A stretch of 64,000 bases of DNA, taken from contig NJBG01000001.1 of NCBI GenBank assembly GCA_005222965.1, positions 737,533 to 801,532 of the forward strand. Direction: 5' to 3'. Origin of the DNA: Candidatus Woesearchaeota archaeon B3_Woes. GTDB lineage: Archaea; Nanobdellota; Nanobdellia; Woesearchaeales; B3-WOES. Under the pieces are notes generated by a model. That model did no database searches and was not told where the DNA came from. It saw only the letters and a program-made list of their open reading frames with translations. Positions 11,031 through 23,140 of this stretch are shown piece by piece. Position numbers and translations under genes: made by a program. Within the stretch, counting starts at the first letter, position 1. Each line of letters begins with the position of its first letter.

Positions 11031-11654
11031 ATGAAAAATGAAGAAATTCTCAAAAAACTTGAAGGAATTCAAACCATTGAAACAGTAATGGATTCGTTAA
11101 GCGTAAACAAAGAGAAAGCTATCTATTACATTCATAGGTTGCGCAAAATAGGTTATGTCAAAACTAAAAAATTAAGCAACAATAAGAGAGTATACAACAT
11201 ATCATTTGAAAATAGATTAAAAGGAATTAGTTATTATGAAATCATAAATAAGCATTCCCCTATAAAAATATCAACTCCTAAAACATACAGGATTTATGGA
11301 AAAGAACCAACCCTTGAAGAAACATTAGTTTATGCAATTAAAACACAAAGCTTTAGGATCATACTTGCAGCTTTAATATTATTTAAGAAAATTGACGACT
11401 GGGTTAGTCTATATCAACTAGCAAAGAAAAATCATATTGAGAGACAGGTAGGCGCTCTTTATGATGTTGCTAGAAGAATAATGCTAACAAGAAGAATGAC
11501 AAATAGATTTAGAAATAATGCCTTGCCAAAAAAAGATTATCAATGGAGATCTGTTATCCCAGAATTAAAATCTGATGATTTCAAAAATATTGAGAAAATG
11601 TGGAAAATATATCTCCCCTTTAATAAAAAAGATATGGAGGCTTACAAAAAATGA
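11031..11654 (+). CDS. Winged-helix regulator, probable AbiEi-like antitoxin
   Basis: The 207-residue protein has an N-terminal HTH (ETVMDSLSVNKEKAIYYIHRLRKIGYVK, residues about 17-50). A basic middle and a helical C-terminal domain follow, in the manner of type IV antitoxins of the AbiE class or related transcriptional partners. The next gene is a nucleotidyltransferase overlapping by 4 nt, the expected gene order for an AbiEi/AbiEii-like pair. The exact subfamily is not certain. Confidence 0.6.
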   Translation: MKNEEILKKLEGIQTIETVMDSLSVNKEKAIYYIHRLRKIGYVKTKKLSNNKRVYNISFENRLKGISYYEIINKHSPIKISTPKTYRIYGKEPTLEETLVYAIKTQSFRIILAALILFKKIDDWVSLYQLAKKNHIERQVGALYDVARRIMLTRRMTNRFRNNALPKKDYQWRSVIPELKSDDFKNIEKMWKIYLPFNKKDMEAYKK

Positions 11655-12313
11655 TTTCAATAGAAGCACAACAAAAATTACTTCTTAATATCTCACGAAG
11701 ATTAAAGAAACCAATAACAGCTTATGCTATTGGGGGAACTGCAATGATGTTCCTTGGATTTAAAGATTCCACTCTTGACATAGACCTTGTATTCGAAAAC
11801 AAGCAGGATCGTGAAATATTTGAGAAAGCTGTTAAAGAAATTGGCTACAGAGAGATGGATTCAGTAATAGTGTATGGAACAAAGCAAAATCAACCAAAAA
11901 TGTTTACATTAGGGGATGAAAGATTGGATCTTTTTGTAATGCATGTGATTGATTTTGATTTTTCTAAGAAAATGATGGAACGAGCAGAACAAACTCATCA
12001 ATTTAATAATAATCTTCTTTTAAAGATTGCGAATCCTCACGACCTTATTTTAATGAAATGTGCTACTGATAGAAAGAAAGATATTGATGATGCAAGAAGA
12101 ATGATCAATAGTACAAAAATAGATTGGAACATTCTAATTAATGAAGCGAAAACACAGATAAGACTTGGAAGACATACTGCTGCTTTTGATTTAGGAGAAT
12201 TTTTAGAGAAACTCAAATACAAAATGAAAATAAATATTCCAAAAGAAGTTCTAGATGATTTATTTGAAATAGTTAAAGAACAAGCAGAAGATAAACAAAA
12301 GAAACAAACTTAG
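11651..12313 (+). CDS. Nucleotidyltransferase, AbiEii/DUF6036-like toxin
   Basis: The 220-residue protein has the nucleotidyltransferase signature AIGGTAMMFLGFKDSTLDID (residues about 26-45), a later DLFVMH strand, and KIANPHDLILMKCATDRKKDIDD, which matches the C-terminal region of AbiEii-like and DUF6036 nucleotidyltransferases. Known AbiEii-family toxins transfer nucleotides to tRNA or protein targets; the target here is unknown. It is co-translated with the upstream winged-helix gene and bounded by repeats C and D. Confidence 0.7.
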   Translation: MISIEAQQKLLLNISRRLKKPITAYAIGGTAMMFLGFKDSTLDIDLVFENKQDREIFEKAVKEIGYREMDSVIVYGTKQNQPKMFTLGDERLDLFVMHVIDFDFSKKMMERAEQTHQFNNNLLLKIANPHDLILMKCATDRKKDIDDARRMINSTKIDWNILINEAKTQIRLGRHTAAFDLGEFLEKLKYKMKINIPKEVLDDLFEIVKEQAEDKQKKQT

Positions 12314-12703: not shown

Positions 12704-14056
12704 TTATTTGACGATTCTTATATTTTTCACATTAGTAAATTGTATAAAACCCATCTTTGAAAAAATAAATCCTAATCCACTTTTTTTCCTTCCACCCCAT
12801 GGACATTGATCGGAGGAGCCCCCTATTTTATTTATTCCAACAGTAAAATAATCTAATCTTTTGGCAACATCTTTTCCTTTTTTAATATTTTTTGTCCAGA
12901 CAGATGCTGTTAGACCAGTTTCATAAGAATTAACAATTGATATGACATCATTTATATCATTAAATTCACTAATTGTTATTAAAGGTGCAAGATATTCTTC
13001 CCTTAGTGATATCACACGTTTCAAATTTACGGATAAGATAGTGGGTTCTAAAATATTTTTTTTAAACTCCCCACCATACACCAATTTGTAATTCTTATTA
13101 CTTATTAATTCTTTAACTTTTTTTATTTGTTTTTGGGTCTTTAAAGGACCTATTTTTATATTTGGATTAAGAGGATCACCCATTTCTAGTTTTTTTATTT
13201 CTTCTTTTAAGTCATTAATAAAATCATTCCTTATTTTTTTATGAATAAAAACTTTTCTTACATTATTACAGGCTTGTCCAGAATTTTTTGTGAAACCCAT
13301 GATTAAATTTTTAATCGCGTATTTAGCATCAGCATCTTGCAAAACTAACATCACATCATTACCACCTAATTCAAGAATGAGTTTTCTAATATTTGTTGAT
13401 GAAACTTGGTATATTTTTTTGCCAACATTATAACTTCCTGTAAATGATATCATATCTATATTACTTTTCGTTATATAATTTCCTTGTTCAGAACCACCCA
13501 TTACAAGAGAGAATATATTCTCATCGATCCCAGCAGATCTCATAATTTCTTTTATTTTCAGACCACACAAAGGAGATAATTCAGATGGTTTGAACATTAC
13601 AACATTTCCACAAATAAGAGCAGGTATAATACTCCATAAAGGGATATTTATAGGATAGTTCCAACCAGTTATAACACCAACAGCACCAATTGGTTCAAAA
13701 ATTATATGATTTGTTGTTTTTTCATCGATTTTTATTTTCTCTTCTTTGAAATATTTTTCAGAATTATTCAAAAAAAAATTTAACCTAGATACAATCATAT
13801 CTATAGATATTAACGATTCTTTTATCGGCCTACCTATTTCCAAACTAATTAATTTAGCAATTTCCTCTTTTTTTTCTAAAATCTTTCTTGGTACACTTCT
13901 AAGTAGTGAGATTCTTTTACTAAGTTCTAACTGTGACCAGTAAACAAATCCCTTTCTTAATTTTTTTATCTTTTTATCAATATCTATTTTAGAATCGCAA
14001 CCTAATTTCCCAATAATTTTATTATTAAAGGGATTATAACTTTTTATATATTTCAT
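12704..14056 (-). CDS. NAD(P)-dependent aldehyde dehydrogenase
   Basis: The 450-residue protein has the aldehyde dehydrogenase landmarks: GVITGWNYPINIPLW (cofactor domain, Asn of the oxyanion hole), FTGSYNVGKKI, the general-base segment LILELGGNDVMLV, and the nucleophilic cysteine in TKNSGQACNNV. It oxidises an aldehyde to an acid, with substrate unknown; succinate-semialdehyde-type enzymes are the closest in feel. It is the last of three minus-strand genes, 4 nt after the PLP decarboxylase. Decarboxylation of an amino acid followed by aldehyde oxidation would be coherent if an amine-oxidising step exists elsewhere. Confidence 0.88.
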   Translation of the reverse strand: MKYIKSYNPFNNKIIGKLGCDSKIDIDKKIKKLRKGFVYWSQLELSKRISLLRSVPRKILEKKEEIAKLISLEIGRPIKESLISIDMIVSRLNFFLNNSEKYFKEEKIKIDEKTTNHIIFEPIGAVGVITGWNYPINIPLWSIIPALICGNVVMFKPSELSPLCGLKIKEIMRSAGIDENIFSLVMGGSEQGNYITKSNIDMISFTGSYNVGKKIYQVSSTNIRKLILELGGNDVMLVLQDADAKYAIKNLIMGFTKNSGQACNNVRKVFIHKKIRNDFINDLKEEIKKLEMGDPLNPNIKIGPLKTQKQIKKVKELISNKNYKLVYGGEFKKNILEPTILSVNLKRVISLREEYLAPLITISEFNDINDVISIVNSYETGLTASVWTKNIKKGKDVAKRLDYFTVGINKIGGSSDQCPWGGRKKSGLGFIFSKMGFIQFTNVKNIRIVK

Positions 14057-14060
14057 TTCA

Positions 14061-15320
14061 TCAATACACTTTTTTAATAAATTCGTTTATGTTCATACCT
14101 TTTTCAATCAATTTCATACCATCATCAACCATTATTATATTAGGTTTTAGATATACAAAATTTTCAGACATACTTAGAGTATATGAACCACAATTCAGTA
14201 TAACCATGCAATCATTTTCCTTTATTTTATAAGATTGAATATTTCTTGAAATAACTCCAGCAGTAGACCCAATCCCATCCCCTATATTTATAATTTCCTT
14301 TCCTTCTGTTTTTGTACATGAGATTGGATAGAATCTATTATGTCTTGTTGGTATAAGTATGTTGGTACCAATATCTACAATAACCCACTTTTTTCCAACA
14401 CTCTTCTTTTTTGTTATAACATTTGTTAAGGCAGCAAATGCATCATTTACAATGTATCTGCCGGGTTCTAATATCAACTCTCCATCAAAATTATATTTCT
14501 TCAATATCTTTGATATCCTAGCAGCAAAAAACTCCATAGAACAATTTTTATTTTTTATTAGGAAATTTGAATTAAACCCACCCCCTATATCAATAAATTT
14601 TATATCTATTTCTTTTGATTTAAGGAATTTATAGAATTTACAAAGTTCTTCAGCAACTCTACAGTGCATATTAGGGGAAACTTCGTTTGCTAAAACATGG
14701 CAATTTAAGCCAACCAAGTTTAAGTTTTTTAATTTTTTGATATCTTTTACTAATCTAAAGGCTTCTCCAGATTTGATATCTATCCCTAGTTTTTCTCCCC
14801 TATTAACAAAAAGACTGTTATCCTTAATGTCTGGATGAACTCTTAAACCAACATTAACAACCTTGTTCATTTTTTTGGCAAGGTAGTTTATTTTATTTAT
14901 CTCTGATAAAGAATCACAATTTATACACTTGATTTCCTCTTTTATAACTAACTTTAGTTCTTGCTCTGTTTTAGCACAGCCATTGAAAATAATATCTTTC
15001 TTATCAAAACCGATTTTTCTGCCATATATGTATTCTATATCTGAGAGGATCTCTATTTTTAATCCTTCCTTTTTTATTTTTTCACATATTTTTCTTAAAT
15101 AACACGCCTTTAATGCATAATGTATATTAGTATTCTTATAATATTTCCTAAAAGCCTTTTTAATTTCTTTGATATTTCTCAATAAAGTTTTTTCAGAATA
15201 TAGAATTATGGGGGTATCAAATTTAGATAAAATTCTTTTATAGTTGATGTTATTTATGTGTATCTGATTATCTATATATTTCATCTCTTTTAATGAATTA
15301 ATTATCTTTTCCATTTTCAA
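14061..15320 (-). CDS. PLP-dependent decarboxylase, fold type III (DapDC/ornithine family)
   Basis: The 419-residue protein has the alanine-racemase-like barrel with the PLP lysine in HYALKACYL (near residue 88), GLRVHPDI, the phosphate-binding FIDIGGGF, EPGRYIVNDAF and the C-terminal CGSYTLSMSENF, where cysteine acts across the dimer. These match diaminopimelate, ornithine and carboxynorspermidine decarboxylases. Substrate specificity cannot be read. It overlaps the Nudix gene by 23 nt and precedes the aldehyde dehydrogenase, indicating one operon, and no other lysine or polyamine gene is nearby. Confidence 0.85.
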   Translation of the reverse strand: MKMEKIINSLKEMKYIDNQIHINNINYKRILSKFDTPIILYSEKTLLRNIKEIKKAFRKYYKNTNIHYALKACYLRKICEKIKKEGLKIEILSDIEYIYGRKIGFDKKDIIFNGCAKTEQELKLVIKEEIKCINCDSLSEINKINYLAKKMNKVVNVGLRVHPDIKDNSLFVNRGEKLGIDIKSGEAFRLVKDIKKLKNLNLVGLNCHVLANEVSPNMHCRVAEELCKFYKFLKSKEIDIKFIDIGGGFNSNFLIKNKNCSMEFFAARISKILKKYNFDGELILEPGRYIVNDAFAALTNVITKKKSVGKKWVIVDIGTNILIPTRHNRFYPISCTKTEGKEIINIGDGIGSTAGVISRNIQSYKIKENDCMVILNCGSYTLSMSENFVYLKPNIIMVDDGMKLIEKGMNINEFIKKVY

Positions 15321-15957
15321 AGAGTTTAGTGGGATTTATTTTTAGCTTTGAAATAATTTTTCCTGAAAAAGTTGGTTTGAAAATAGCATCTTCTGGAATA
15401 GTTTCATTAGATTTTATAAAATTTCCATTATTGTTCAACTCAGAATAAGTTATACTTTCTTTATATAATATATCGAAATTATCTTTTTTAACGAATATGA
15501 TTCCAGGTATTTCATCAGAATGGAAGGGTTCTTTTTTTATCTCTCCAATAAAAATGAATAATAACAAACCCCACTTACCATCTTTATTAGGATCCCCCGG
15601 CATTCCTGGAGAGATAAACTCCACAACATAGGCAGGACCATCTTTTATTTTTAATATTCCTTTTTCATTGTTTTCTTTTATGTGTGTTGTGTCTTTTAAG
15701 GGCATAATTTTAATTTCTTGTAGGATTTCCTCTTTTACTTCTCTTAAAGCAGCACGCAAAGGGGATTCTTTTTGTTCTATCCTACCTCCCACACAACTAA
15801 AACCTATCTGAGTCATATTATTACGCTTTTTCCAGTATTTGGATTTATTTATAGCAAAAATAAAGAAATCTTGAAACTTTACAATAGTTGTAGACCCAGC
15901 TATAATAGGTATAGAAGAAAATCTTTTTTTGAAATTTATAAGCAGTTTATTATACAT
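15298..15957 (-). CDS. Nudix hydrolase
   Basis: The 219-residue protein carries a Nudix box, GGRIEQKESPLRAALREVKE followed by E (residues about 56-76), with the metal-binding glutamates in place. It would hydrolyse a nucleoside diphosphate linked to another moiety. The start is supported by GGTGAT 4 nt before the ATG at 15957 and a TATA box 26 nt upstream. It leads the minus-strand operon and is divergent from the AlaRS-like gene. Confidence 0.82.
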   Translation of the reverse strand: MYNKLLINFKKRFSSIPIIAGSTTIVKFQDFFIFAINKSKYWKKRNNMTQIGFSCVGGRIEQKESPLRAALREVKEEILQEIKIMPLKDTTHIKENNEKGILKIKDGPAYVVEFISPGMPGDPNKDGKWGLLLFIFIGEIKKEPFHSDEIPGIIFVKKDNFDILYKESITYSELNNNGNFIKSNETIPEDAIFKPTFSGKIISKLKINPTKLFENGKDN

Positions 15958-15979
15958 ATCACCTAATATCTTCTTTAGA

Positions 15980-16047
15980 TTTATAAATGTTTTTATGTTT
16001 AATCATATTTACTACTGGTGAGTAAAATAAAACAAAAGATTTATAAA
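15980..16047. promoter_or_regulatory. Divergent promoters between Nudix and AlaRS genes
   Basis: Two TTTATAAA boxes, at 15980-15987 and 16040-16047, lie 25-27 nt before the Nudix ATG (minus) and the AlaRS ATG (plus). Co-regulation of the two arms is plausible. Confidence 0.5.
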
Positions 16048-16068
16048 TTCTGATCTTATACTAAACAT

Positions 16069-17859
16069 ATGCACCATAAAGAAATTACCAATATTTTCTT
16101 GAATTATTTTATAGATAGAGATCATCATTTATTACCAAATCAATCTTTAATACCATCTGAATCTGATTCATCTGGTCTTTTTATAAACTCAGGTATGCAC
16201 ACAATAAAACCTTATTTTTATGGAATAGAAAAACCTCAAAAAAGTAAGCTATGTTCAATACAAAAATGTTTAAGAACAATAGACATTGATAATGTTGGAT
16301 ATAACAGAAGGACTTTAACACTCTTCTCTATGTTAGGCAGTTGGTCAATAAATGATTATTGGAAGGAAGATGCTATTCCACTTGCTTATGAATTATTAGT
16401 AGATAGTTTTGGTTTTGATCCAAATAAGTTAAGTGTTACTTATTTTGAAGGAGATGATAAAGTACCTGAAGATTTAGAAACAAAGGCAGAATGGGAAAAA
16501 GTTGGAGTCCCAGAAGAAAGGATTATAAAATTGGATGGAAAGAACAATTTTTGGTCTGCAGGACCTACAGGTTTATGTGGGCCTTGTACAGAAATTTATT
16601 TTGATAGAGGAGAAGAATATGGTTGCGGAGAAGAAACATGTAAACCTAGTTGTGATTGTGATAGGTATTTGGAAATATGGAATGCAGGGGTATTTATTCA
16701 ATATGACAGACAAAAAGATGGTAGCTTAAAGACTCTCCAACTTATAAGCGTGGATACGGGTGCAGGTCTTGAAAGAATAGCAACTATCTTACAAGGCAAG
16801 GATTCAGTATATGACACCACCATATTTAAACCAATCGTTTCCAATATAATCAGTTCTTGCAGTATAGAAAAAGAAGACTTATCATCAGAAAATAAATATG
16901 TTAGAATCATAGCAGACCATTTAAGAGCCTCAACATTCTTACTAGCCGAAAACATTATTCCAAGCAACATTGATAGAGGTTATGTTTTGAGGAGACTTTT
17001 GAGGAGATCAATAAATCATGCTTCAAGTTTAGGTATTGAGAAAGATGGTCTAGTTGGTGTTGTTGATAAAATAATCCTCAATGAGGGTGAAGAACATACA
17101 TATCTTCAAGAGAACAAGGATATAATATTACTTAATTTTGCTAGAGAATATGATGGATTCATCAAAACCCTAAATAAAGGTAAGAAAAAATTAATGCAAG
17201 CAATTGAAGGATTATTTCAAGGAAGTGAACTGGAATCACAGATAGCATTTAATCTTTTTGATACTTATGGATTCCCATTTGAATTGACAGAGGAAATTTG
17301 TAAACAGAAAGGAATAATAGTTAATCAAAACACATTTAAGGACTTATTACAAGAACACAAAGCCAAATCAAGAGCTGGTTTTCAAAAAAAGTTTAGTTCT
17401 GGTTTAATGACCAGTTCATATATCTGTGTGAAATATCATACTGCAACACATTTACTACATCAGGCTTTGAGGGATGTTTTAGGTGAAGAGGTTGAACAAA
17501 AAGGGAGCAATGTTACCCCAGAAAGATTAAGATTTGATTTTTCATTCCAAAGACCTTTAACACCTGAAGAAATTTCTAATGTAGAAGAGATAGTAAATCA
17601 AAAGATAAAATCTAATTTAAAAATCACAAAAAAAGTAACAAGTTTAGAAGAGGCAATTGCCTCAGGGGCGATAGCATTATTTCAAGATAAGTATGATAAA
17701 AAAATTAATGTCTACTCAATAGGGGATTATTCTAAAGAGGTTTGTAAGGGGCCACATATCCAAGAAACCTCTGAATTAGGGAATTTTAAAATTATTAAAG
17801 AAAAAAGTTCTTCATCAGGTATTAGGAGAATAAGAGCAGTACTAAAAGAGGAATTTTAA
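16069..17859 (+). CDS. alaS: Short alanyl-tRNA synthetase (no C-terminal domain)
   Basis: The 596-residue protein has the AlaRS catalytic core (SGLFINSGMHTIKPYF, TLFSMLGSWS motif 2, SVDTGAGLERI motif 3) and the editing domain (YHTATHLLHQALR HxxxH, KEVCKGPHI). The C-Ala dimerisation/tRNA-elbow domain of about 250-300 residues is missing. A GCGEETCKPSCDCDRYLEIW cysteine cluster could bind zinc. Short bacterial-type AlaRS occurs in CPR bacteria, from memory, so transfer is plausible. Position at the head of a radical-SAM operon inside the accessory island suggests a specialised role, or a second resistant synthetase, rather than necessarily the housekeeping enzyme. Confidence 0.85.
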   Translation: MHHKEITNIFLNYFIDRDHHLLPNQSLIPSESDSSGLFINSGMHTIKPYFYGIEKPQKSKLCSIQKCLRTIDIDNVGYNRRTLTLFSMLGSWSINDYWKEDAIPLAYELLVDSFGFDPNKLSVTYFEGDDKVPEDLETKAEWEKVGVPEERIIKLDGKNNFWSAGPTGLCGPCTEIYFDRGEEYGCGEETCKPSCDCDRYLEIWNAGVFIQYDRQKDGSLKTLQLISVDTGAGLERIATILQGKDSVYDTTIFKPIVSNIISSCSIEKEDLSSENKYVRIIADHLRASTFLLAENIIPSNIDRGYVLRRLLRRSINHASSLGIEKDGLVGVVDKIILNEGEEHTYLQENKDIILLNFAREYDGFIKTLNKGKKKLMQAIEGLFQGSELESQIAFNLFDTYGFPFELTEEICKQKGIIVNQNTFKDLLQEHKAKSRAGFQKKFSSGLMTSSYICVKYHTATHLLHQALRDVLGEEVEQKGSNVTPERLRFDFSFQRPLTPEEISNVEEIVNQKIKSNLKITKKVTSLEEAIASGAIALFQDKYDKKINVYSIGDYSKEVCKGPHIQETSELGNFKIIKEKSSSSGIRRIRAVLKEEF

Positions 17860-17882
17860 TATTAACTAGTTTTGAATACAAA

Positions 17883-19082
17883 ATGAGAATAAAACTTGAT
17901 AAAACCCCAATAAAAAAATTTCAAAAGGAAAATGGTTTTGTTCTATACAATCCACTGAACCACGAGATAGTGTTTAACAAATCAAATCTCCAACCAGCGG
18001 ATGATATATTCTTAGATTCTATTACACTAGAAAGACCTAAATTAAAAAAGGCAAGAGTTGAGCTAACTTTAGGGTGTAATGCTGCATGCAAATATTGTGT
18101 TGTTTTTAAAAATGATGTATCAAATATTGGAAAAACGATGAATCATGGAACAGCTAGAAATATTGCGGCCTTTTTTAATGAAAATATGATGGGTGGTACA
18201 CTCATGTTGATAGGGGGCGAACCCTTGGATGCGTGGGACATAACAAAATATCTCTTTGAGTCTTGTGAAGCAGGAGAGAAAGTACTTTTTACTAATGGTA
18301 CTTTGGTAACTAAAGAGTATGCTAAATTTTTATCTGACCAAAAAGTATTGGTTTTGGTTTCATTAGACGGTATGCATCAACATAACACTCAAAGAGTATA
18401 TTCAGATGGACGCGAGATTTTCGGTGATACAATAAGGGGTCTTCGAACTTTACAAGATGCAAATTCAAAAATCGCTATATCTGCTGTTGTTACAAACCAT
18501 AATGTTTATGATCTTGCAGATATAGTAGAGTTCTATCATAAAGAGCTTAGTGTGGATTCAGTGGGTTTAACAACCCCCCATCATATAAATAATTTTGACT
18601 TTGCACTAGATATAAAAGAATATACTAATCAAATGTTAAATATATTTTCATATTCACAAGAAAATAATATTTATATAGATCAGATAGCAAAGAGAATTAA
18701 AGCTATAGCTCACCAGGATTTTAAAGATAGGGCGTGTAAAATATCGGGAGATCAAATTACTTTTTATCCAGATGGTACAACTAGTCTATGCATAAAAATA
18801 GATAAAATACCTAAATTAAAAGACAAAAAGGCAGATTATTATTTCGAAAAATTGCCAATCTTTGACTCTAGTTGCGTGGAGTGTACTGCTATAGGTGTTT
18901 GCGGAGGAGGTTGTTATTTAGATGCTTTTTATGATCCTACTGGTAGGGATCAAAGGGATTGTTATTTTTACCCAAAATTAGTTGAGCATATTATATGGGA
19001 TATGAAAGACTTAGTTGATGAAAAAGGCAAAATATCCAAAGAAAAAAGGATCCTAAAATACAAGGGTATGTTACATGAATAA
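17883..19082 (+). CDS. Radical SAM protein with SPASM-type C-terminal clusters
   Basis: The 399-residue protein has the radical SAM CxxxCxxC motif in LTLGCNAACKYCVVF (residues about 65-75). GGEPLD follows, and a C-terminal cysteine-rich region (CKISGDQ, SLCIKID, SSCVECTAIGVCGGGCY, RDCYF) matches SPASM auxiliary Fe-S clusters. Such enzymes commonly modify peptides (RiPP maturases) or act as anaerobic sulfatase-type maturases. A short N-terminal region of about 50 residues could bind a leader peptide, but no precursor peptide is evident next to it. It overlaps the next gene by 8 nt. Confidence 0.85.
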   Translation: MRIKLDKTPIKKFQKENGFVLYNPLNHEIVFNKSNLQPADDIFLDSITLERPKLKKARVELTLGCNAACKYCVVFKNDVSNIGKTMNHGTARNIAAFFNENMMGGTLMLIGGEPLDAWDITKYLFESCEAGEKVLFTNGTLVTKEYAKFLSDQKVLVLVSLDGMHQHNTQRVYSDGREIFGDTIRGLRTLQDANSKIAISAVVTNHNVYDLADIVEFYHKELSVDSVGLTTPHHINNFDFALDIKEYTNQMLNIFSYSQENNIYIDQIAKRIKAIAHQDFKDRACKISGDQITFYPDGTTSLCIKIDKIPKLKDKKADYYFEKLPIFDSSCVECTAIGVCGGGCYLDAFYDPTGRDQRDCYFYPKLVEHIIWDMKDLVDEKGKISKEKRILKYKGMLHE

Positions 19083-22000
19083 CGTATTAAAAGAGATAGA
19101 AAGGATAAAGAGTAGTGAGAAAATCCTATTTAAATTGGATAAAAATAAAAAATATAAAATCACTCTTTGTTATCCAGATACCTATACAACAGGTATGCCA
19201 AACTTAGGAATCCAATATTTCTTCAAAGAAATTAACACAAGGAATGATTTTTTTGCTGGCAGGTGTTATTTGCCTAATAAAAAGGTTTGGAAAAAAATAG
19301 TAGAGTGTAATCTACCTTTATATGATTGGGATTCTTTGGAAGAATTAAAAAATTCTGATATACTTTCTTTTACAGTTTCTTTTGAAGATGAATTTGTGAA
19401 TATCGTAAGAATGTTAAAATTTGCAGGAATTAATCCCATCGCTTCAGAAAGGAAAGAAAAAGGTCCTTTGATAATTGCAGGGGGTCCGTGTTCTAGTTAT
19501 AATCCTGAACCATTTTCAAAATTTATAGATGCTTTTGTTATAGGTGAAGGAGAAACAATGATACATAAATTGCTAGATATTTACAAGAATTCTGAGGATA
19601 AAAAAAGTTTTCTTAGAAATATAGATGTTTTAGAATCTGTCTATGTCCCTTCATTCTATGATTTCGAGTTTGAAGGCAAAAGAATAAAAAAAATTATCAT
19701 AAATGGAAAGGAAAATGTTTATAGAAACTATGTTAAAAATCTCGACAAATCCCCTATTTGTTCTACAATAATAAATAAAAAATCACAATATAAAGAAGAA
19801 GTTTTCTCAATAGAAGTTTCAAGAGGATGCAGGATGCATTGCAGGTTTTGTTATATAGGTAACCATTTTAGAAAACAAAGGGTGTTATCTCTCAACAAAA
19901 TAAAAGAACTCATTAATGAAGGGAAAAAATATACAAAAAACATAAAACTTTTTTACGAGGTTTTACCACCTAAGTATTATTCTGATTTATTCAAAGTTTT
20001 ATTGGACTTTGTTAAAAAAGATGACATAAAACTTAAATTAGGATCATTTAGAGTAGAATACCTAAACAGTAATATCGTTAATGTTGTTGCCATGGGTAAC
20101 CAAGACAAGATTATCATTGCTCCAGAAACAAGCGAAGGTAAACTGAGAAATTTCATAAATAAAGGTCAAATGAGCGACGAAAAAGTAAAAAATGCTGTTA
20201 AATTATGTCTCGAAAAAAGCATAAAAAATTTTGGTTTATATCTTATGGTTGGAATACCCACAGAAACCAAAAAAGATATAGACTCTTTGATAAATCTTAT
20301 TATAGATGTTTTTAATATAATAAAGGATAGAAACAAGAAGGGGATTTTAGAAGTCCATATAAATGCATACTTCCCTAAACCACTAACACCTTTGCAGCTG
20401 GAAAGAAACATATCTCAAAAAGAAGCAATAGGAAAAATAGAGTATATACAATCTAAGATTAAAATAAGATTAAATAGTGAGGATTTTAAAAGAGTGCATT
20501 TTAAAACAATAGTTTATGATGAGATATCTTACAGCCAACCCATCCTAACAAGGGGGGATAGACGTCTAGGGAATGTTTTACTTGATGTATGTAAACTAAC
20601 TTATCCTTACACAAACAAAACACCAACACCCGAAATATGGGACTATGCATTAAGAAAAAATAGACTAGAAGCAAAATATTACTATCGTGAAAGGGATTCT
20701 ACTGAAATTATGCCGTGGCATATAATAAAAAATAATACTAGCAAAACCTACTTTATGAGAGAAAGGGAGAGAGCATATAAAGGTCAGCTAACTGATCCTT
20801 GTCATCATTCATCATGTGATGTTTGTAAATCTTGTCTAGATGTAAACCAATTAATGAAGATTGTTATAGTTTGTCCACCATTAAAAGCACCTATAAAATC
20901 ATGGAGATACTGCCCCTATCATAATTGGAAATTTTCTTTTAGTACAGGCGATCATGGTTACTCGGGCGTAAATATGCCTATATGTTTAATTGCTTCTTTT
21001 TTGAGGAAAAAAGGCATTAATGTTGATATTCTTGACGCTTTTTTTGAAGATATTTCGATAGAAGATACTATAGAAAAGATATCTAAATATAGCATTATAG
21101 GGATAACTGTACATTCTAATGTCAATCTTACCGACATAAAAAAAATAATAAAGAAATTAAGAAGTCTAAGAAAAAATCATAAGATAGTACTTGGAGGTCA
21201 CTATCCTTCATATTTCCCTGAGAAATGTATAAATGAGCTAGATGCAGATTTTGTTATAAGGGGAGAAGGAGAAGAATCAATGTTTGAATTAATTCAATGT
21301 TTACAAGAAGGTTTTGATTTAACTAAAGTAAAAGGGTTGACATTTAAACAAAAGGGTAGAATCTTTAGTAACGAACCAAGGGAAAAAATAAATAACCTGG
21401 ATAGTTTACCTTTTATGGCGAGAGATTATATACAAAAAGAACTTGAACTTAAATTTGTCCCTGCTATATCTTCGAGTAGAGGTTGTGATTATTCAGGATG
21501 TTCTTTTTGTGATATTGCTTCTTTTCAAAAAACATCAATTGGTCCTGTTTGGAGAGGGAGATCTGCTAAGAATATAGTAGATGAGATAGAATACATAACC
21601 AAAAAGTGGAAATTTAATAAATTTAAATTTGTTGATCCAAATTTTGTAGGGGGGAAAAATGGGAGAAAAAGAGCTTATAAAATCGCAGACGAAATTATCA
21701 AAAGAGGATTAAAAGTTAGATATATGTTTGACACAAGAGTAGATGAGATTAATAAAAAATTGTTTAAAAAGTTATATAAATCTGGTTTAAGGATGGTTTA
21801 TCTCGGAGTCGAATCCTGTATCCAGAGGCAACTTGATTATTTTAATAAAAATACAACGCTTCAATCAAACAAAAAAGCTATAAAAACTTTAAGAGAGACA
21901 GGCATTATACCTCTTTTTGGAATCATAGTATTTGAACCAACAACAACCCTAGAAGAAATTAGAAAAAACTTTGACTACTTTATTTCGAAAGGTGGATTCA

Positions 22001-22416
22001 ATATTTATAGGTTTGTTAGAGGAATTATTCCTAGATTTGGTACACCTATGATGGATATGTTCGAAAAACAAGGCATACTCATAAAATCTTATCCTGACTA
22101 TAAATACAAATTCGAGAATAAAGAAGTAAGGGTACTTTTTAATAAATCAGATATATATGCACAAAATGTTTTTTTGATTGAAAAAAAGTATAAAGAAAAA
22201 ATATTGAAAAAAATATCAAAAGAAATTAACAGACCTTTCTTTTTACATTTAGAGAGATTCCTAAAACAAAAAACCATTGAACATTTTGAACTTTTATTAA
22301 AGGAGTTTGAAATAAACAAAGATGTTTCTCCTCAACTTATAGATAAAATGATCAAAAATTTTAGTAAAGAAATAGAAACAGAATTTAAAACTAAATTAGA
22401 AAATGCCAAGATTTAG
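19075..22416 (+). CDS. Double B12-binding radical SAM protein (fusion of two modules)
   Basis: The 1113-residue protein contains two full B12-radical-SAM modules. The first has a cobalamin-type domain (LIIAGGPCSSYNPEPFSKF, AFVIGEGET) and CxxxCxxC in SRGCRMHCRFCYIG near residue 255. The second restarts with MKIVIVCPPLKAPIKSWRYC near residue 598, followed by ICLIASFLRKKGINVDILDA, VLGGHYPSYFP, FVIRGEGEESM, and the cluster motif SSRGCDYSGCSFCDIA near 805. These families catalyse methylations or rearrangements at unactivated carbons. A bridging Cys-rich segment (CHHSSCDVCKSCLDV) lies between them. It is coupled by overlap to both neighbours. Confidence 0.82.
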   Translation: MNNVLKEIERIKSSEKILFKLDKNKKYKITLCYPDTYTTGMPNLGIQYFFKEINTRNDFFAGRCYLPNKKVWKKIVECNLPLYDWDSLEELKNSDILSFTVSFEDEFVNIVRMLKFAGINPIASERKEKGPLIIAGGPCSSYNPEPFSKFIDAFVIGEGETMIHKLLDIYKNSEDKKSFLRNIDVLESVYVPSFYDFEFEGKRIKKIIINGKENVYRNYVKNLDKSPICSTIINKKSQYKEEVFSIEVSRGCRMHCRFCYIGNHFRKQRVLSLNKIKELINEGKKYTKNIKLFYEVLPPKYYSDLFKVLLDFVKKDDIKLKLGSFRVEYLNSNIVNVVAMGNQDKIIIAPETSEGKLRNFINKGQMSDEKVKNAVKLCLEKSIKNFGLYLMVGIPTETKKDIDSLINLIIDVFNIIKDRNKKGILEVHINAYFPKPLTPLQLERNISQKEAIGKIEYIQSKIKIRLNSEDFKRVHFKTIVYDEISYSQPILTRGDRRLGNVLLDVCKLTYPYTNKTPTPEIWDYALRKNRLEAKYYYRERDSTEIMPWHIIKNNTSKTYFMRERERAYKGQLTDPCHHSSCDVCKSCLDVNQLMKIVIVCPPLKAPIKSWRYCPYHNWKFSFSTGDHGYSGVNMPICLIASFLRKKGINVDILDAFFEDISIEDTIEKISKYSIIGITVHSNVNLTDIKKIIKKLRSLRKNHKIVLGGHYPSYFPEKCINELDADFVIRGEGEESMFELIQCLQEGFDLTKVKGLTFKQKGRIFSNEPREKINNLDSLPFMARDYIQKELELKFVPAISSSRGCDYSGCSFCDIASFQKTSIGPVWRGRSAKNIVDEIEYITKKWKFNKFKFVDPNFVGGKNGRKRAYKIADEIIKRGLKVRYMFDTRVDEINKKLFKKLYKSGLRMVYLGVESCIQRQLDYFNKNTTLQSNKKAIKTLRETGIIPLFGIIVFEPTTTLEEIRKNFDYFISKGGFNIYRFVRGIIPRFGTPMMDMFEKQGILIKSYPDYKYKFENKEVRVLFNKSDIYAQNVFLIEKKYKEKILKKISKEINRPFFLHLERFLKQKTIEHFELLLKEFEINKDVSPQLIDKMIKNFSKEIETEFKTKLENAKI

Positions 22417-23140
22417 TATGAGTGAATGGAAAAAAGAAGGATTTGATATTAGAATATTAGATAAACCCGTCCAATATGCGAATCTAGACAGGATGTGTTT
22501 GACACACCCCTGCTATTTTCATTTTAATAATTATCAAGCGAGCAATTTTTATTCATTAGAATCTGTTTTTGATGGAGGACTTAAATTTTTAGTTCTTGCT
22601 TTTCCAAAAAATAAAGATTTGAGTAGAAAATCAAAATTTGATGTAGATTCAATAGATGATTATATAGCCTTTTATAAGAGTATAAATGGTAATGATTATG
22701 AATTTAATTTTGTTGAACAGATAGAGGGTATAAAAAAAGGGTTTGTAGGGGTTGCTATTTCAGATGAAAAAGGCAATGTTTTGATAGAGTGTTATAAACA
22801 ACCTTATGAAACAAATGTATATAAATTTACTAGCGGATCATGCGATCCAGTTAACATTTCTTCTTTTTTATTTATGGATTATGGAGATTTAACTTTAGCA
22901 GATGTTGGTAAAGCAAAACCTTCTTTGAGAATACTCAAGGATATTGAGCAAAAAGTCGATCTTTTTTTTGGATACTTTGAATTCATTTATGGAAAAACAG
23001 AACATCTAGGAGAATGCATCTATTTTACAGATCATCAAACAGACAAGAATTTTTTAAGCAGTCTTTATTCTTCCATGGATGAACTAGGAAATGTAACAAA
23101 AAGATTAAATGCTAGTATAATAAAATCTTGTTTAGATTAA
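22403..23140 (+). CDS. Unknown 245-aa protein at the end of the radical-SAM operon
   Basis: I do not recognise a family. The protein is soluble with a mixed alpha/beta pattern, including GGLKFLVLAFPKNKD, FVGVAISDEKGNVLIECYK, VYKFTSGSCDPVN and a C-terminal helical region. It overlaps the double radical-SAM gene by 14 nt, so it is likely a partner, substrate carrier or downstream enzyme of that pathway. Confidence 0.6.
   Translation: MPRFSMSEWKKEGFDIRILDKPVQYANLDRMCLTHPCYFHFNNYQASNFYSLESVFDGGLKFLVLAFPKNKDLSRKSKFDVDSIDDYIAFYKSINGNDYEFNFVEQIEGIKKGFVGVAISDEKGNVLIECYKQPYETNVYKFTSGSCDPVNISSFLFMDYGDLTLADVGKAKPSLRILKDIEQKVDLFFGYFEFIYGKTEHLGECIYFTDHQTDKNFLSSLYSSMDELGNVTKRLNASIIKSCLD

Follow-up and report, generated by a model that had tools for sequence, protein, structure and literature searches.

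An accessory alanyl-tRNA synthetase linked to an ATP-grasp-fold protein and radical-SAM enzymes in a woesearchaeal genome

Two divergent gene arms

We analysed a 64,000-nucleotide stretch (the window) of the 1.02-Mb, 96% complete genome of Candidatus Woesearchaeota archaeon B3_Woes, in which an accessory alanyl-tRNA synthetase (AlaRS2) heads a group of plus-strand genes encoding radical S-adenosylmethionine (SAM) enzymes. This genome is designated G000, other G numbers denote related genomes, and the relatives considered are DPANN archaea. The seven genes listed in an initial annotation are all confirmed as long open reading frames (ORFs), and every one has a strong family match except the last, encoding a 245-aa protein. 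The plus arm comprises AlaRS2, a radical SAM/SPASM enzyme, a 1113-aa double B12/radical-SAM protein (dB12) and the 245-aa protein, termed here the 22403 protein; the minus arm runs from a Nudix hydrolase through a pyridoxal phosphate (PLP) enzyme to an aldehyde dehydrogenase. Because the junctions overlap or span few bases, each arm reads as an operon: on the minus strand the Nudix and PLP genes overlap by 23 bp and 4 bp separate the PLP and dehydrogenase genes, and on the plus strand a 23-bp spacing between the AlaRS2 and SPASM genes is followed by overlaps of 8 bp (SPASM/dB12) and 14 bp (dB12/22403).

The arms diverge from a 111-bp gap (15958..16068) that contains, as initially reported, a pair of TATA-like elements, two TTTATAAAT palindromes (15979-15988 and 16039-16048), each placed ~21-30 bp ahead of a start codon. 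The motif by itself is not rare in the window (13 strand hits vs 8.4 expected); two copies within 111 bp are. Such pairing would suit two archaeal promoters with leaderless mRNAs. An assembly chimera, considered at the outset as an explanation of the cluster, is unlikely, since the window lies within a 1,000,545-bp contig and its base composition is even.

The accessory synthetase and its ATP-grasp-fold partner

AlaRS2 (596 aa, 16069..17859, plus strand) consists of catalytic and editing domains and exceeds the cut-off of 529 for NF002436, the short bacterial-type DPANN AlaRS (PRK01584), with 674.8 bits. It is not the sole AlaRS of its genome, a possibility the initial annotation had raised: a second short enzyme, at C1:267.9-269.6 kb, scores 878 bits against the same model, ~200 bits more. 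By sequence, this second enzyme is identified as the housekeeping AlaRS and AlaRS2 as an outlier of a distinct lineage. Two complete short AlaRSs were found in G000 alone among 99 relatives, about a quarter of which have a short AlaRS as the sole one found, the remainder having mostly the long archaeal type. Because housekeeping AlaRSs of the clade are thus often equally short, the missing C-Ala domain, first taken as a hint of function, gives no clue to a special role.

A profile search of 353 genomes of the order recovered AlaRS2 from G000 and G159 only, at 1229 and 1191 bits, with the next match at 662. The G159 ortholog is 48% identical to the window protein, and G159 carries a separate long archaeal AlaRS elsewhere as its housekeeping enzyme. 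Maximum-likelihood analysis pairs the AlaRS2s with 100/100 support on long branches and places the housekeeping AlaRS of G000 deep within the other clade; AlaRS2 is therefore not a recent local duplicate. A housekeeping enzyme would be expected to be the only AlaRS and to track the species, and AlaRS2 does neither. A tRNA scan of its own genome (Rfam/ARAGORN) returned 29 tRNAs, among which tRNA-Ala was not recognised, and several genes seem to bear introns (L196, L200-L204).

AlaRS2 retains the catalytic motif-2 arginine (R69), the pocket asparagine and aspartate (N205, D229) and the editing motifs HTATH at 457 and CKGPH at 559. Judged from these positions, the residues for adenylate formation and editing are intact and the side-chain pocket is changed. 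Where housekeeping enzymes align as EIWN-DVF and the DH-1 AlaRS as EIWNL-VF, both AlaRS2s read EIWNAGVF, and their one-residue insertion adjoins the valine equivalent to DH-1 Val204, which lies 3.4 A from the alanine methyl group (PMC12143591). The near-invariant glutamate of the motif-2 sequence FFEMLG is replaced by serine or asparagine in both AlaRS2s (F[S/N]MLG). The position equivalent to Asp400 of E. coli AlaRS, which we take to recognise the G3:U70 pair, is aspartate or glutamate in the AlaRS2s and mostly glutamine in housekeeping enzymes. Given the insertion, the lost glutamate and the change at the Asp400 equivalent, it is plausible that AlaRS2 differs from the housekeeping enzyme in its amino acid or tRNA substrate.

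The 22403 protein (245 aa, 22403..23140, plus strand), whose link to AlaRS2 spans two genomes, has no sequence match in Pfam, NCBIfam or the PDB and no relatives in viral contigs; six relatives, one of them weak and none matching a family by itself, were found in DPANN genomes, and the G159 ortholog shares 29% identity over 221 aa (E 6e-21). Structure prediction, proposed initially for this protein, proved informative: AlphaFold2 run with seven sequences gave a model of the G159 ortholog with pLDDT 85 and pTM 0.83, compared with a pLDDT of only 40 from three sequences. Among the PDB matches that Foldseek listed for this model, most are ATP-grasp enzymes (E ~2e-5 to 4e-4, probability 1.00), including D-Ala-D-Ala ligase, succinyl-CoA synthetase, LysX/ArgX, RimK and the graspetide macrocyclase AMdnB, and the best match in a viral library is a PEP/pyruvate-binding ATP-grasp protein. 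As read from the modelled G159 ortholog, the 22403 family is predicted to have an ATP-grasp fold.

In G159 the AlaRS2 and 22403 orthologs are divergent neighbours 98 bp apart, an adjacency expected by chance at roughly 2 in 1400 genes. Beyond the pair lie an NTase/CYTH-like gene, a B12-radical-SAM gene ~2.2 kb from AlaRS2 and a HemN/HutW-like radical-SAM gene at 3.7 kb, so that the AlaRS2/ATP-grasp pair also has radical-SAM genes nearby in this second archaeal genome. The opposite flank encodes a Vut_1 transporter, a bacterial-type tyrosyl-tRNA synthetase (TyrRS2, additional to the housekeeping TyrRS elsewhere in G159), a HisC-like aminotransferase, an EamA-type exporter, a glutamine amidotransferase, an Ala-Glu-epimerase-like enzyme and a GCS2-type ligase. 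Judging from its gene content, this island (L136:2967-10922) may itself be a cluster for the biosynthesis of an amino acid or peptide. The initial proposal of a dedicated, tRNA-linked biosynthetic use for the AlaRS gains weight from these results, as the enzyme is an accessory copy far removed from the housekeeping AlaRS and keeps its 22403 and radical-SAM neighbours in G159. The island also contains an Lrp-like regulator and a 291-aa unknown protein, for which searches gave no support to a cyclodipeptide synthase (CDPS)-like identity.

Radical-SAM enzymes and the minus-strand arm

The radical SAM/SPASM enzyme (17883..19082, plus strand; PF04055, 3.1e-16) has complete motifs, with CX3CX2C at residues 65-72 and seven SPASM cysteines at 285, 303, 331, 334, 340, 344 and 360. 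For this enzyme and its 43% identical ortholog in G245, the best NCBIfam match is the PapB ranthipeptide family NF047865 (77.5 bits vs a cut-off of 340). The assignment to peptide modification made at first thus stands in part: PapB and other peptide maturases are the best matches, but all fall far under their cut-offs, and by sequence such a role is plausible. A search of the genome contigs with a two-sequence alignment recovered the known ortholog and one weak match only, and a phylum-wide search returned generic SPASM proteins without the cassette neighbours. In G245, a genome of the same order, two more SPASM radical-SAM genes, a DUF362 gene and a nucleoside-phosphorylase-like gene precede the ortholog and a B12-radical-SAM gene comes after it, with one of two methionyl-tRNA synthetases (MetRSs) 5 kb away in divergent orientation. 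The same locus (L079:371-9609) also carries a HAD hydrolase gene.

The dB12 gene (19075..22416, plus strand) encodes a fusion whose N half (residues 19-584) resembles TIGR03960 (368.8 bits, under the 462.3 cut-off), with CX3CX2C at 252, and whose C half is BchE-like (160.5 bits), with CX4CX2C at 804. The fusion of dB12 is to a second B12-radical-SAM unit in place of the DUF2344-type partner of TIGR03960. A TIGR03960 search over the order gave many generic B12-radical-SAM matches and few relatives of the N half, none of them with the cassette. The C-half motif reads CDYSGCSFC (residues 804-812, window 21484-21510) in place of CX3CX2C, unlike the B12 enzymes of G159 and G245.

On the minus strand, the Nudix hydrolase (219 aa, 15298..15957; PF00293, 9.3e-06) has a Nudix box in its sequence, and the aldehyde dehydrogenase (450 aa, 12704..14056; PF00171, 1.6e-120) has no NCBIfam equivalog above cut-off. 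Between them, the LysA-like fold-III PLP enzyme (419 aa, 14061..15320; PF02784, 6.8e-40; 230 bits against the lysA model, under the cut-off of 298) was initially called a decarboxylase, but it is without the catalytic Cys/Asp motif. Its GSTAG aligns to the CETGD/CESSD of solved diaminopimelate decarboxylases, and because this sequence replaces the Cys-Glu-x-x-Asp motif, standard decarboxylation appears doubtful. Ornithine decarboxylase without its active-site cysteine yields an aldehyde via decarboxylation-dependent transamination; by analogy, one may speculate that the PLP enzyme might yield an aldehyde passed to the adjoining dehydrogenase.

Possible functions of the plus-strand operon

The reading we favour, at somewhat less than an even chance, is that the four plus-strand genes (16069-23140) make up a specialised biosynthetic module in which AlaRS2 feeds a dedicated aminoacyl-tRNA or adenylate into a radical-SAM peptide or amino-acid pathway. 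AlaRS2 would activate alanine, or a small amino acid resembling it, and load a tRNA for the pathway; the ATP-grasp protein might couple this amino acid, or a different carboxylate, to an acceptor that is itself a peptide or amino acid; and the SPASM enzyme and both B12-radical-SAM halves could then crosslink and/or C-methylate the product. More loosely, the divergent operon could supply or tailor a building block, an aldehyde or acid made from an amino acid. Catalytic roles are here taken from family membership and co-function from linkage in few genomes.

Several observations weigh against this biosynthetic reading. AlaRS2 and this SPASM enzyme each occur in two genomes only, making the cases for co-function few, and the G245 locus sits on a 9.7-kb contig whose genome shows 6% contamination. 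The order is rich in B12-radical-SAM genes, and dB12 has a C half no nearer to the B12-radical-SAM enzymes of G159 and G245 than to many others, so the true orthologous links, as far as sequence comparison indicates, are those of AlaRS2 with the ATP-grasp protein and of the SPASM gene only. Neither a precursor peptide, which was anticipated initially as a short ORF, nor a carrier protein was found, the gaps holding only unremarkable ORFs of 20-43 aa; likewise, no window gene matched a family of aminoacyl-tRNA-dependent transferases (AcmF/SbzA-like, GNAT, CDPS or PEARL) in Pfam/NCBIfam. In the 22403 protein, alignment by eye suggests that E-F is kept, ExN has become DxQ, the strand lysine is absent and an arginine is replaced by tyrosine; because some ATP-binding residues thus look replaced, its ATP-grasp activity is uncertain. 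The Nudix/PLP/aldehyde dehydrogenase arm is absent from both related loci, so that the initial view of both arms as one cassette finds no support.

A variant that we consider rather unlikely gives AlaRS2 a new specificity, for a non-alanine small amino acid or another tRNA, from which its ATP-grasp partner and the radical-SAM enzymes would make a modified peptide or amino acid derived from tRNA; if true, the combination of radical-SAM genes and accessory synthetases for Ala, Tyr and Met would represent a recurring DPANN biosynthetic strategy. It is unlikely that AlaRS2 and the ATP-grasp protein instead form a translation-side module, aminoacylating a ribosomal protein, tRNA or factor in the manner of RimK or EF-P ligase while the radical-SAM enzymes modify RNA or a ribosomal protein. 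RimK is among the Foldseek matches, two distant 22403 relatives (L138:9691-10377 and L137:9287-10066, in G439 and G273) lie among or beside rps7, rps12 and nusA-like genes, and the Vut_1 transporter flanking AlaRS2 in G159 is of queuosine-precursor type; but AlaRS2, unlike core translation factors, is missing from nearly all relatives, the SPASM enzyme best matches peptide maturases, and the GCS2, epimerase, aminotransferase and exporter genes of the G159 island speak for something other than translation.

Still less probable, in our estimate, is that AlaRS2 and the ATP-grasp protein work as a pair and that the radical-SAM and Nudix/PLP/dehydrogenase genes are unrelated neighbours, co-transcribed by accident through genome compaction. 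The AlaRS2/ATP-grasp pair is indeed the sole orthologous pair, B12-radical-SAM genes are widespread and neither half of the fusion is a specific ortholog; yet the SPASM and dB12 genes have AlaRS2 on one side and the ATP-grasp gene on the other, at junctions that overlap or span 23 bp, and radical-SAM pairs stand near accessory synthetases in both partial clusters. Second SerRS, IleRS and TrpRS copies in producers of albomycin, mupirocin and indolmycin are resistance genes, and AlaRS2 might likewise be a self-resistance copy, its altered pocket sustaining translation when the cluster or a neighbouring organism makes an AlaRS inhibitor. An extra synthetase beside biosynthetic genes, with a changed pocket and catalytic and editing motifs kept, fits this reading; duplicate synthetases acting as resistance genes are documented (PMC9437257), and the G159 island includes an exporter-like gene. 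We nevertheless rank self-resistance as the least probable of these readings, since one inhibitor would not suffice to explain why a single G159 island has accessory synthetases for two unrelated amino acids and G245 an extra MetRS, and the constant ATP-grasp pairing is foreign to known resistance systems.

Some natural-product clusters are known to carry extra synthetases, as with AcmD/AcmF and SbzA (PMC12945691, PMC9437257), and the nearest precedent for the biosynthetic module is the ascamycin acm cluster, in which AcmD is an AlaRS and AcmF an AlaRS-like transferase (PMC12945691). Both loci place an AlaRS paralog within a biosynthetic cluster and the canonical AlaRS elsewhere in the genome; AlaRS2, like AcmD, is predicted to be active, and its N205 and D229 appear to be the residues changed in AcmF (PMC12945691). 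In contrast to the bacterial acm cluster, the window is without an AcmF-like truncated transferase and sulfamate genes, and has instead an ATP-grasp-fold protein, radical-SAM enzymes and an altered AlaRS2 pocket. Other parts of the operon have separate counterparts. AlaRS2 shares the domain layout of short DPANN AlaRSs, without C-Ala, but is accessory and carries the WN-A-GVF insertion and the FFE to F[S/N] change; the SPASM enzyme has the full CX3CX2C and seven-cysteine arrangement of PapB-type maturases, but no Cys-rich precursor peptide was found at the window. The modelled fold of the 22403 family likens it to ATP-grasp ligases (D-Ala-D-Ala ligase, RimK, LysX/ArgX, AMdnB) and PPDK-type proteins, from which it differs in its size (219-245 aa), the lack of a separate pre-ATP-grasp domain, 8-15% identity and the apparent replacement of the ATP-binding lysine and asparagine positions.

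DPANN archaea have ~1-Mb genomes and are thought to be without most biosynthesis. Among the open-licence papers searched we found no joint treatment of Woesearchaeota, radical-SAM enzymes and biosynthetic clusters, and no DPANN example of an accessory pocket-altered AlaRS accompanied by radical-SAM enzymes and an ATP-grasp-fold protein. A synthetase with a reshaped pocket and a new ATP-grasp family would provide concrete genes for aminoacyl-tRNA-dependent biosynthesis in DPANN symbionts, and AlaRS2 is one place to look for a synthetase whose amino-acid specificity is new.

Further loci emerged from the analysis. A G042 locus with an AlaRS and a TIGR03960-like gene was considered as a relative of the cassette and rejected, since its AlaRS, of housekeeping type, lies 4 kb off and is encoded on the other strand. 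In G042, L043:6862-13526 encodes an amidohydrolase with a TIGR03960-like domain fused to it, next to a SPASM-type radical-SAM enzyme and a methyltransferase, together with MTA-phosphorylase-like and deoxyribosyltransferase-like genes, and possibly recycles radical-SAM by-products. Upstream of the cassette in the window, at 11031-12313 on the plus strand, genes for a winged-helix-like protein and a DUF6036 nucleotidyltransferase follow one another with overlapping stop and start codons, a pair that resembles AbiE-type toxin-antitoxin systems.

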